From: Thermococcus radiotolerans
GTDB lineage: Archaea; Methanobacteriota_B; Thermococci; Thermococcales; Thermococcaceae
Reading direction: 5' to 3'
Assembly: GCF_002214565.1 (NCBI RefSeq)
Contig: NZ_CP015106.1
Span: 1,302,001 to 1,366,000, forward strand
DNA length: 64,000 nt
Of this stretch, positions 41,919 through 45,422 are shown in pieces. Position numbers and translations under genes: made by a program. The notes below the pieces were generated by a model that was not told the origin of the DNA, did not search any database, and was given only the letters and a program-made list of their open reading frames with translations. The stretch's first letter is position 1, and each line of letters opens with the position of its first letter.

Positions 41919-43847
41919 ATGAAAAGGGCACTTGTACCACTGCTGATAATCATGCTTCTGCTCCCCTTTGCATCCTTTGCCACCGCTGAATGCCCCAGCG
42001 AAGGCCACACGGTAGTGCTGAAGGCACCGGCCGTCTCAAGGACAGCCAGCGGGGAGCTGATAGGTGTTGCCACGGATTTCGTCATCACAGTCGCACCGGG
42101 GACCGGTCACGTTTACGTCGAGACGTGGCCCCTCGCAGAGGTTGACATGCAGGCGAGTGCCAGATTGGCCGCCCAGATAGCGGGTAAGGTTCTCGGGGTA
42201 GATATGAGCAAGTACGATGTTTTCATCCATATTAAGGCCGATTCCCCGATAATCGGCGGCCCCTCCGCGGGAGGGACCATGACCGTCGGAATCATCGCGG
42301 CCCTTGAGGGGTGGAAGGTCAACCCCAAGGTTATGATGACCGGGATGATAAACCCGGACGGCACCATAGGGCCCGTAGGAGGAATCCTGGAGAAGGCCTC
42401 TGCAGCCCACGACGTCGGAGCGCAGCTCTTTCTGATTCCCCAGGGACAGCGCATCCAGTACGTTCAGGAGACCCAGAAAAAGGAGATTGGCGGCATAGTC
42501 GAGATAAACACTCAGACGAAGAAGGTTGACGTCGTTGACTACGCCAAGGAGCGCTGGGGACTGACGGTCATCGAAATCAAGGACATCTACAACGCCGTCT
42601 ACTACTTCACCGGCCACAAGATACCCAGGCCGGAGGCGCCCGCGTACATAAAGATAGACACCTCCTTCCTCAAGGACGATGCGCTCAAGGACTACGACAA
42701 CACAACGGCCTACTACCAGGCCACCCTTGAGAAGCTCAAGAAGAGCGACGTCAACTACGCCACATACACGACCCTCATGGAGGCCCTAAACGAGGCCCAG
42801 GCGGTGCTCAACCAGTCGAAGCAGAGCCTCGACGACGGGATGTACTACACGACGATGAGCAAGGACTTCCAGGCGAGGATAATAATAAGGCACGTGGACT
42901 GGTACCTGGGCGTGAAGTCGGAGGAGGACGTCCAGAGAATCCTGAGGACAACTGGGTCGGAGATAAACGCCTCGGAGCGGAGGGTGTCTAACATCACGAT
43001 ACGAGGCACGACGATGCTCCAGGCAGTTGCGGCCGCCGAGGAGAGGGTGGAGCAGGCCAAGGAGTTGCTGGACGAAGCCTGGAAGTACTACTACACCGGT
43101 GACTACTGGGACGCCGTTGGCGATGCGGCCTACGCCTACGAGAGGGCAAAGACAGCGGTCTTCTGGGCGAGTCTCGGCGAGAGGTTCGCGACCGGCGACG
43201 TGATAGGCAAAGACGTGGTCAAGGCCACAGCGAGGGACTACATAGACGAGTCCAACCTCATAGTGACCTACATAGAGTCGATGTACGGCACCGTTGGGGG
43301 CGACCTAAGTCAGAGCATCCAGCAGGCGGAGCAGTACTACGAGGACGGCAAGTACTCTGCGGCGCTCTTCACGGCGATGGAGGCGCGCGTGAGGGCGCAG
43401 GTCTTCCTCGATACGCTGGGAATAGACAACCAGACTGTCCTCAAGGACAAGCTGGCGGGAATGAAGGAGGGCGCTAAGGTGGCCATTGCGATGGCCCAGA
43501 ACCAGGGCATAACGCCCGTGCTGGCCATAGCATACTACGAGTTCGCGGAGAGCTACGAGCAGAGCGCCGAGGAGAACGGCAGCATGGAGGACCTCCAGAC
43601 GGCCATGATATTCTACCAGTACGCCAGGGAAACCGCCAATCTGTTCCTCAGCAAACCGGCCCAGTCCGTACCGGCGGCCAACACAACGGCAACCGACGTT
43701 CCTCAGATAGTCATCCCAACACCATCATCCGCCGAGACTTCGACGAGCACCCCCGGCGACTCCTCTGAGAGAATCCCCGAGACGGCGATAATCCTGATAG
43801 CCGTCGGCGCGTTCCTCGTCGGTGCAGCGGTGGGCAAGAAACTATGA
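41919..43847 (+). CDS. Secreted Lon-like (S16) serine protease
   Basis: The 642-residue product has a signal peptide (ALVPLLIIMLLLPFASFATA). A Lon-type protease domain at about 30-210 carries the catalytic dyad Ser116 (IIGGPSAGGTM) and Lys159 (GPVGGILEKAS). A long helical domain with a TPR/coiled-coil flavour follows (about 230-590). A Ser/Thr-rich linker and a C-terminal membrane helix (TAIILIAVGAFLVGAAVG) close it. There is no ATPase domain, so unlike archaeal LonB this would be an ATP-independent protease tethered outside the membrane. Standalone S16 domains of this type are known; the target is not. Confidence 0.87.
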   Translation: MKRALVPLLIIMLLLPFASFATAECPSEGHTVVLKAPAVSRTASGELIGVATDFVITVAPGTGHVYVETWPLAEVDMQASARLAAQIAGKVLGVDMSKYDVFIHIKADSPIIGGPSAGGTMTVGIIAALEGWKVNPKVMMTGMINPDGTIGPVGGILEKASAAHDVGAQLFLIPQGQRIQYVQETQKKEIGGIVEINTQTKKVDVVDYAKERWGLTVIEIKDIYNAVYYFTGHKIPRPEAPAYIKIDTSFLKDDALKDYDNTTAYYQATLEKLKKSDVNYATYTTLMEALNEAQAVLNQSKQSLDDGMYYTTMSKDFQARIIIRHVDWYLGVKSEEDVQRILRTTGSEINASERRVSNITIRGTTMLQAVAAAEERVEQAKELLDEAWKYYYTGDYWDAVGDAAYAYERAKTAVFWASLGERFATGDVIGKDVVKATARDYIDESNLIVTYIESMYGTVGGDLSQSIQQAEQYYEDGKYSAALFTAMEARVRAQVFLDTLGIDNQTVLKDKLAGMKEGAKVAIAMAQNQGITPVLAIAYYEFAESYEQSAEENGSMEDLQTAMIFYQYARETANLFLSKPAQSVPAANTTATDVPQIVIPTPSSAETSTSTPGDSSERIPETAIILIAVGAFLVGAAVGKKL

Positions 43848-45104
43848 ACCTTCCTTTTCCCTCTTCCTCAGGAGTCTTACCTCCCAGTCAGAGAGGCTCG
43901 GGCACACCGTGCAGCCCAACCGGTAGAAACCTTCGTAGTAGAGAGGGTGGAGCTCGATGCCTCTCATCAGGAGGAAGAGCTGAACCATCAGGCCGCTCCA
44001 GAACTTCACCGGCATGACCTCGAGGAACCTTCCAAGCACGTCATTCCGCCGCTCCAGAACGGGCGGTTTGAGCCTTCTCCTAGCACTCTCGCCGTCGCGG
44101 TCTCCCACGAGCAGGAGGGGTTTCTCGAACTCGGAGGCGGCCCGGTAGAGGGCCTCCACCTTCAGCCTCGTGCACCAGCGGTTGGAGTGGGTCGGCACGC
44201 CGTACCGGTCGAGCGGCATGGGTACGTCAATCCTGATGACGTCAACGCCGAGCCTCCGGGCGATCTCCTCCACGTACTCATCCGTCCCGGGCATCTCATA
44301 TTCCATGCGGACGTAGACGGCTGTGACGTCGTCAAAGACCTCGCTGGCCAGGAGCAGGGCGGCCGTTGAGTCCTTCCCGCCGCTCCACGGAACGACGATG
44401 TCGTGCCCCTCAAACCTCCGGAGAAAGGCCCTGCTGGCCTCCGCAAAGGCCTCTATATACCCCCGGTTAAGCTCGATGAGCCTCTCCAGTGGTACCGCCT
44501 CAGCCGAGGGAATCCTCCAGAGAACCTCCACAGGGGAGCCGAGCCTCTTGCTGACCTCGGCCACCCTGTGCGGGCCGGAGTAGTAGACCTCGAGGTTCAT
44601 CAGCTTCCTCAGGACGAGGGAGTTTTCTCCAATTTCGACGCCGAGGATGGAGCGCATCGCCCTCCGGAAGCCCTCCCCCATGGCCAGGTAGATGTCGTAG
44701 TCCGGGTGAATCTCGATGCCAAGGGGATTCTCCGGGTTCAGCGCGTAGGCGTCCTTCCATTCGATCCCAAGCCTGAACCTGGCCTTGATCTCTTCGATGT
44801 TGGAATGCAGCTCGTCAACCCGCATGTTCCTCACGCGCTTCGTCCTCAGAAGCCGCGCGTAGAAGGGCTTGCCGGATTCCTCAAGGACGGGCAGCACTTC
44901 CTCCATCAGCTCCTCCTCGGCATCTCCAAGGAGCAGGATGGGCACGTACGGCTCATCGAGGAGCTCCCGGAGGGGGCCCTCAACCTCTTCCAGTGTTCTG
45001 CCGCCGCCGAGGCTTGAAACCTTCAGAAAACCGCCGTAGTTTCGTTCGTTTATGTACTGAAGGGCCTTGGCGTCCTTCCTGGCCCTGACTATGAGATGGA
45101 ACAT
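43842..45104 (-). CDS. PAPS-reductase/PP-loop ATPase family protein
   Basis: The 420-residue product has a PP-loop SGGKDSTAALLLASEVFDDVTAVYV near residue 240, the mark of adenylating N-type ATPases (PAPS reductase, tRNA thiolases). A later THSNRWCTRLKVEALYR and a C-terminal YRLGCTVCPSLSDWE give three or more cysteines, possibly for an Fe-S cluster or zinc. The N-terminal 200 residues (MFHLIVRARKDAKALQYIN) are unlike assimilatory PAPS reductase. A sulfur-transfer or RNA-modification role is likelier than sulfate reduction. Its stop overlaps the protease gene's end. Confidence 0.83.
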   Translation of the reverse strand: MFHLIVRARKDAKALQYINERNYGGFLKVSSLGGGRTLEEVEGPLRELLDEPYVPILLLGDAEEELMEEVLPVLEESGKPFYARLLRTKRVRNMRVDELHSNIEEIKARFRLGIEWKDAYALNPENPLGIEIHPDYDIYLAMGEGFRRAMRSILGVEIGENSLVLRKLMNLEVYYSGPHRVAEVSKRLGSPVEVLWRIPSAEAVPLERLIELNRGYIEAFAEASRAFLRRFEGHDIVVPWSGGKDSTAALLLASEVFDDVTAVYVRMEYEMPGTDEYVEEIARRLGVDVIRIDVPMPLDRYGVPTHSNRWCTRLKVEALYRAASEFEKPLLLVGDRDGESARRRLKPPVLERRNDVLGRFLEVMPVKFWSGLMVQLFLLMRGIELHPLYYEGFYRLGCTVCPSLSDWEVRLLRKREKEGS

Positions 45105-45137
45105 GAAAAAAGATTTTAGGCGAAGCTTAAAACCTTT

Positions 45138-45195
45138 GCCGCCGATGATGAAAACTCCCTGCCCTGAACGGTGAGGAGAACCGGCTCCCTGAGGC
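45138..45195 (+). ncRNA. C/D box guide sRNA
   Basis: All four boxes are present in order. Box C ATGATGA is at 45145-45151, D' CTGA at 45164-45167, C' GTGAGGA at 45171-45177, and box D CTGA at 45189-45192. Guides are AAACTCCCTGCC (12 nt, 45152-45163) and GAACCGGCTCC (11 nt, 45178-45188), the standard archaeal spacing. GCC before box C and GGC after box D can form the terminal stem. A TATA-like ATTTTAGG lies about 25 bases upstream. By the N+5 rule it would methylate the G in GGCAG of one target and the C in GGAGC of another. The targets were not identified. Confidence 0.82.
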
Positions 45196-45344: not shown

Positions 45345-45422
45345 TGGTGGACCGGGCGGGATTTGAACCCGCGGCCTCCGCCTTGCGAGGGCGGCGCTCA
45401 TACCAGGCTGAGCTACCGGCCC
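45345..45422 (-). tRNA. tRNA-Ala (anticodon CGC)
   Basis: On the minus strand the acceptor stem GGGCCGG/CCGGTCC carries the G3:U70 pair that identifies alanine tRNA. D stem GCTC/GAGC, anticodon stem CCGCC/GGCGG with loop CTCGCAA (anticodon CGC, codon GCG), and T stem GCGGG/CCCGC with TTCAAAT are all paired. CCA is encoded at 45345-45347. A minus-strand TATA box (CTTTTTAAAGG) lies about 30-40 bases upstream. No intron. Confidence 0.97.

Follow-up and report, generated by a model that had tools for sequence, protein, structure and literature searches.

A double-guide C/D box sRNA gene in a 64-kb window of the Thermococcus radiotolerans genome, with a predicted 23S rRNA target for its D' guide

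The sRNA gene described here was analysed within a 64-kb stretch of DNA, called the window below, and lies on the + strand between two neighbours carried on the − strand. The divergent neighbour encodes a 420-aa protein with a PAPS reductase domain (43842–45104, − strand; Pfam PF01507, E 1e-35), and 36 nt separate its ATG (45104) from the start of the sRNA at 45141. At its other end, the PAPS-reductase open reading frame overlaps tail to tail, by 6 bases (43842–43847), a Lon-like protease open reading frame (41919–43847, + strand; the name is based on sequence). The convergent neighbour is a tRNA-Ala(CGC) gene (45348–45422, − strand), found by an Rfam scan about 150 nt from the sRNA. Because it is on the opposite strand, the sRNA and the tRNA converge and are not in tandem. 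An earlier sequence-only reading had placed the sRNA in the gap before this tRNA gene. The position stands, at a distance of about 150 nt, but the tRNA is found beside the sRNA in only three other genomes (26 loci scanned), and this comparison of loci gives it no evident role and points to no functional link with the sRNA.

One full C/D'/C'/D set, its guides 12 and 11 nt long and its ends forming a terminal stem, was read directly on the + strand, with best bounds at 45141–45195. From 45138 to 45195 the strand reads GCC GCC GATGATGA AAACTCCCTGCC CTGA ACG GTGAGGA GAACCGGCTCC CTGA GGC. The 5' strand of the terminal stem (GCC, 45141–45143) has as its partner the GGC at 45193–45195. Between them follow the C box GATGATGA (45144–45151), the 12-nt D' guide AAACTCCCTGCC (45152–45163), the D' box CTGA (45164–45167), a D'–C' spacer ACG of 3 nt, which is K-loop size (45168–45170), the C' box GTGAGGA (45171–45177), the 11-nt D guide GAACCGGCTCC (45178–45188) and the D box CTGA (45189–45192). 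A regular expression describing the whole architecture gave a single match in the 64 kb, both strands being searched, and no match in 100 first-order Markov shuffles. The sequence-only reading had proposed a complete C/D box sRNA with these four boxes at 45138–45195, with guides of 12 and 11 nt and a possible terminal stem. Every one of these elements, including both guide lengths, was recovered by direct reading, and the proposed bounds were correct to within 3 nt.

The features by which the class is recognized are found together at this locus: a C box (class consensus RUGAUGA) and a D box (CUGA) close to termini that pair, C' and D' boxes inside, a short spacer, guides of about 10–12 nt and conservation of the guide in related genomes (43 of 94 family genomes). 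Judged by its sequence, the window sRNA is a genuine archaeal C/D box sRNA, ordinary in kind. Folded as a single strand, the sRNA did not stand out from shuffles (z −0.45). Since unpaired guides are what a guide RNA should have, this null result is neither for nor against one.

The sRNA was compared with known guide RNA families. Its boxes, spacing and terminal stem are like those of the Rfam family snoPyro_CD (RF00095; Pyrococcus C/D box sRNAs), which is a box-level family. The score was 43.9 bits (E 7e-6 across the whole window), 1.1 bits short of the gathering score of 45 bits, so a default Rfam scan of the window reports the tRNA only. The Pyrococcus orthologs score 47–58 bits, above 45, and the cut-off is reached by the orthologs at loci L025, L026, L030, L129, L141 and L145. 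A clear C/D sRNA can therefore fall narrowly short of the Rfam cut-offs. The families sR1 (RF01152), sR10 (RF01149) and sR17 (RF01144) resemble the window sRNA in box sequences and size and differ from it in their guides; they gave 35.5, 24.7 and 19.9 bits, respectively, all below cut-off. One Pyrococcus ortholog scored 36.7 with sR17 against a cut-off of 36; its boxes align and its guides do not. The window sRNA was assigned to neither sR17 nor sR1, since the alignments cover the boxes only. In P. abyssi, 59 C/D guide RNAs are on record (PMC3124441), and the Pyrococcus ortholog is probably already among them. A paper search found no match to the guide sequence in the literature, and the PLSDB plasmid collection held no match to the sRNA. 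What was already known is the kind of RNA, with Pyrococcus orthologs recognized by Rfam; what is added here is the D' target, a D target at the level of the family together with signs that the guide has drifted, and an assignment of the promoter that natural losses support.

Orthologs were sought in 94 genomes of the family. BLAST gave matches in 35 of them. A sequence model built from orthologs, with the window sequence among its input (R1), gave strong matches (E <= 1e-8) in 45 genomes, 43 of which carry an intact copy; the same model scored the window sRNA at 66.5 bits (E 1e-19), a value obtained with the window sequence itself in the model. By genus, intact orthologs number 26 in g1 (the genus of the window, which we take to be Thermococcus), 9 in the 9 genomes of g3 (presumably Pyrococcus), 5 in g5, 2 in g2 and 1 in g6. 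The R1 search found no ortholog in the 13 genomes of g4, and none in T. kodakarensis (most likely genome G024), a species with published RNA-seq. Weak BLAST neighbours in G004, G041 and G068, and a second match in G022, have different guides and were therefore put down to other C/D sRNAs; the true ortholog of G004 was located by the R1 search elsewhere in that genome. A contig pattern scan matched three MAGs of Thermococcus, together with two bacterial sequences that are likely chance hits. In the Pyrococcus loci (L146 and others, at about 1200–1260), the sRNA and a convergent gene appear to overlap at their 3' ends, so that the D box is opposite the stop codon region of that gene.

Boxes, guides and spacers were counted in 42 parsed orthologs, and the D' core motif in all 43 intact ones. 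The D' guide is 12 nt long in 42/42, the D guide 11 nt long in 40/42 (overall range 10–11 nt) and the D'–C' spacer 3 nt long in 36/42. The motif AACTCC[CT]TG is present in the D' guide of 43/43 orthologs. The GCC/GGC stem was found in 24/42, most of the others having a different stem or none. The C box is RATGANGA in all parsed orthologs except that of G093 (GTGATGA), the D' box is CTGA or CCGA with one exception, the C' box is RTGA[TG]GA in 42/42 and the D box is C[CT]GA with the single exception of G029 (CCGG). Conservation of the boxes in related thermococci had been suggested as a test of the sequence-only reading; the test was run here, and 43 genomes of the family keep the boxes. In the C/D K-turn, the C-box base and the variable D-box base that it faces are T/T in 23 orthologs, G/C in 9, C/C in 4, C/T in 3 and G/T in 3. 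For the C'/D' counterpart, the counts are T/T 32, G/T 5 and G/C 5. At the C/D positions the two bases vary together. No ortholog places a T opposite a C of the D or D' box, which fits a K-turn pair being maintained, although the counts come from related sequences and do not represent independent cases.

In the target, the base that pairs with the fifth guide nucleotide before the D or D' box is the one whose ribose fibrillarin methylates. Both guides were searched against the genome's own 16S, 23S and 44 tRNAs, and pairings were read against the published guide criterion of at least 9 Watson–Crick pairs including the +5 position (PMC4644070). The best partner of the D' guide is 23S 663–673 (GGCAGGGAGUU), with 11/11 contiguous Watson–Crick pairs over guide positions 1–11, a length beyond the published nine. 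Among 3000 shuffled guides, 0.27% reach 11 pairs. Position 5 of the guide pairs with G667, from which Gm667 is predicted (G667 corresponds to about E. coli 583, pairwise-alignment numbering). In all 32 genomes with both a guide and a 23S read, D' positions 3–11 pair with the target, with one G·U (G038), and positions 1, 2 and 12 vary. The D' target named by the sequence-only reading, with a G at position 5, is thus present in 23S at 11 of its 12 named bases with the G in fifth place, and the complementarity to rRNA or tRNA on which that reading was to be judged was found for the D' guide.

The D target named by the same reading did not hold up. The exact GGAGCCGGUUC is absent from 23S and from the scanned part of 16S, and a guide search of 16S, 23S and the tRNAs returned none; the family-wide target is 23S AAGCCGGUC/AAACCGGUC. 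Family members share ACCGG as the core of the D guide, the next base being C or U. The corresponding 23S segment, 794–802 (about E. coli 675–683), which we take to be in the helix 35a region, reads AAGCCGGUC in g1; the carriers read from g2, g3 and g5 have AAACCGGUC there. Counted by genome, the target and guide bases at the variable position are G/C in 16, A/U in 13 and a G/U wobble in 3, and the A/C mismatch was found in none. By these counts, the D guide and its 23S target show compensatory change. Since the G/A difference in the target falls mostly between g1 and the other genera, one or a few events may be all that the co-change reflects. The sequence comparison supports 23S AAGCCGGUC at 794–802 as the ancestral target of the D guide, with Cm797 predicted wherever it is still used.

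In the window species, the D guide makes 7 contiguous Watson–Crick pairs with 794–802, and up to 9 are made in relatives. Seven pairs are reached somewhere in 16S+23S by 84% of shuffled guides, and the D guide of the window species, taken alone, stays below the nine pairs of the published rRNA criterion. The window clade (GAACCGGCTCC) has lost one pair to the ancestral site. In one Thermococcus group, the D guide shows a one-base slide and is still 11 nt long (GACCGGCTTTC), and its +5 position faces G796 instead of C797. From these alignments, the D guide of the window species has drifted from the family target, and its present target is uncertain.

Three other accounts of the D guide were weighed. 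It may be empty in the window clade, the D' guide alone being productive and the D half merely holding the RNP together. The best strict-pairing rRNA match of the D guide is not above chance, and sRNAs with one empty guide occur in published sets (PMC4644070); the ACCGG core is nevertheless intact in all members of the window clade, as remaining constraint would predict, and we consider this account possible, on the doubtful side. A re-aimed guide is a somewhat weaker candidate: in the window clade, it would be directed at 23S AUAGCUGGUUC (923–933, about E. coli 802–812), with Cm927 replacing Cm797. The change from GACCGG to GAACCGG in the clade gives 9 contiguous pairs (8 Watson–Crick and 1 G·U) at 923–933, and −14.5 kcal/mol there versus −13.1 at the ancestral site. 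However, this energy difference is small, the longest strict Watson–Crick run is shorter than the published 9, and in relatives with CAACCGG the pairing at 923–933 (8 pairs, −11.4) is weaker than that with the ancestral site (−13.0), which leaves the re-aiming unlikely. We regard tRNA-Arg(UCG), methylated to Cm40 in the anticodon stem, as a very improbable target: guide positions 1–9 form 9 contiguous Watson–Crick pairs with it and 7.6% of shuffled guides match some tRNA equally, but full pairing requires a CTCC beside the D box that few orthologs have, and ribose methylation of position 40 has been argued to be impossible since its 2'-OH contacts 16S rRNA in the P site (PMC7668247).

The D guide derived from one aimed at 794–802 can be set in a wider picture, which we put forward tentatively and to which we give less than even weight. 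The D half may shift its site among neighbours, giving Cm797 in Pyrococcus and several Thermococcus, Gm796 in the other group and possibly Cm927 or no site in the window clade, with the gene repeatedly lost or excised. If true, the ribosomes of close relatives differ in 2'-O-methylation at one spot. Indels that move the predicted site to neighbouring bases have been reported in archaeal C/D sRNAs, and 23S helices 35/35a are a methylation hot spot (PMC4644070). In the archaeal double-guide sRNAs of Dennis et al. (2015) acting on 23S domain II, two guides are also directed to one rRNA molecule; that set is without Thermococcales, and its sites and those of the window sRNA were compared at the level of the helix region (PMC4644070).

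The proposed promoter of the sRNA consists of a purine-rich BRE-like stretch and a TATA-like TTTTAG (45108–45119, + strand, with TTTTAG at 45114–45119), 24 nt before 45141. This is the TATA-like box that the sequence-only reading had put about 25 bases upstream. The proposed TATA element of the PAPS-reductase-like gene lies at 45127–45132 on the − strand (TTAAAA when read on the + strand), about 26 nt before the ATG at 45104. Each element is nearer to the start of the other gene than to its own, an arrangement that recurs in most syntenic orthologs, and the two promoters are therefore interlocked. In the g1 orthologs adjoining the PAPS-reductase gene, a TTTTAG-type element is found 24–26 nt upstream of the sRNA, and in orthologs the TATA element of the PAPS-reductase gene is 25–28 nt from its ATG. 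The CTTAAAA nearest to the sRNA was considered as its TATA element and rejected: it is 11 nt from the sRNA and 26 nt from the divergent ATG, and three genomes in which the divergent gene is not adjacent have lost it. In those genomes (G070, G071 and G047), TTTTAG is kept at 24 nt and TTAAAA is gone. The converse is seen in G031, where the PAPS-reductase gene is kept with its CTTAAAAG, the sRNA is excised and the sRNA TATA element has decayed to GTTGGGG. Where the two genes have come apart, each promoter element has stayed with its own gene. No clear TATA-like element was found at the sRNA promoter spacing in G042, G018 and G037.

The excision in G031 (locus L187) is near-exact, between GCCGC and AGG, upstream of the match start at 1501. 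Decaying copies are carried by two Thermococcus genomes, G019 and G021 (L154 and L155, 1201–1256), with the C' or C box changed and the third guide base altered. More than half of the g1 genomes have no intact copy, some of them being incomplete assemblies, and the sRNA is therefore not essential. The PAPS-reductase gene is present in most of the sRNA loci fetched from relatives. Among 14 checked genomes without an intact sRNA, a close homolog of it (76% identity) was found only in G031; the other 13 gave PAPS-domain matches of 33–36% only, so absence of the sRNA usually goes with absence of the gene. Linkage is the simple explanation for this joint absence. The PAPS-reductase gene is linked to the sRNA and is not part of it. 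Taken together, the orthologs, with a one-base slide, a co-change, decayed copies and one excised copy, form a compact natural series on the gain, move and loss of an rRNA methylation site.

In Thermococcales, C/D sRNAs are often circular. In archaeal C/D sRNPs, L7Ae has its binding sites at the K-turn of C/D and the K-loop of C'/D', and Nop5 and fibrillarin then join. By analogy with this known C/D biology, from which its protein binding, methylation and processing are inferred, the window sRNA would be transcribed from its own promoter, L7Ae would bind at its C/D K-turn and C'/D' K-loop, and Nop5 and fibrillarin would assemble on it. The D' guide would pair with 23S 663–673 and set fibrillarin on G667, giving Gm667. 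The D guide, derived from one aimed at 23S 794–802, would give Cm797 if still functional here. For T. kodakarensis, sRNA maps have been published (PMC4247193), as have circular-RNA maps with circular C/D sRNAs (PMC9014305). For P. furiosus, RiboMeth-seq data are stated to be available in GEO (PMC7758197).

Architecture, conservation, D' complementarity, D co-change and the behaviour of the promoter elements were all established computationally. We hold with high confidence that the locus carries a double-guide C/D box sRNA with its own promoter, a D' guide leading to predicted Gm667 and a D guide derived from one aimed at 794–802. Going by its guides, the sRNA most likely steers methylation of one or two exact spots of the large rRNA, and the two sites are concrete predictions of rRNA methylation in Thermococcales that can be tested. 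That the boxes are a chance arrangement or a decayed pseudogene, as the broken boxes of G019 and G021 could suggest, is extremely improbable with all four boxes near consensus, 43 orthologs of near-fixed spacing and 0/100 shuffles matching. Hardly any weight is likewise given to a regulatory K-turn leader, that is, an L7Ae-binding 5'-UTR element of a downstream gene in place of a free sRNA: some snoRNA-like K-turns do occur in 5' UTRs of T. kodakarensis (PMC4247193), but the downstream neighbour, tRNA-Ala, is carried on the − strand, and the downstream sequence varies among relatives, yet both guides are kept.

A repeat unrelated to the sRNA was seen in genome G076 (L201, L203–L208). About 67 near-identical copies containing AACTCCTTGGTCTGA, each of more than 160 bases, are present on both strands, and the repeat is possibly a mobile element.
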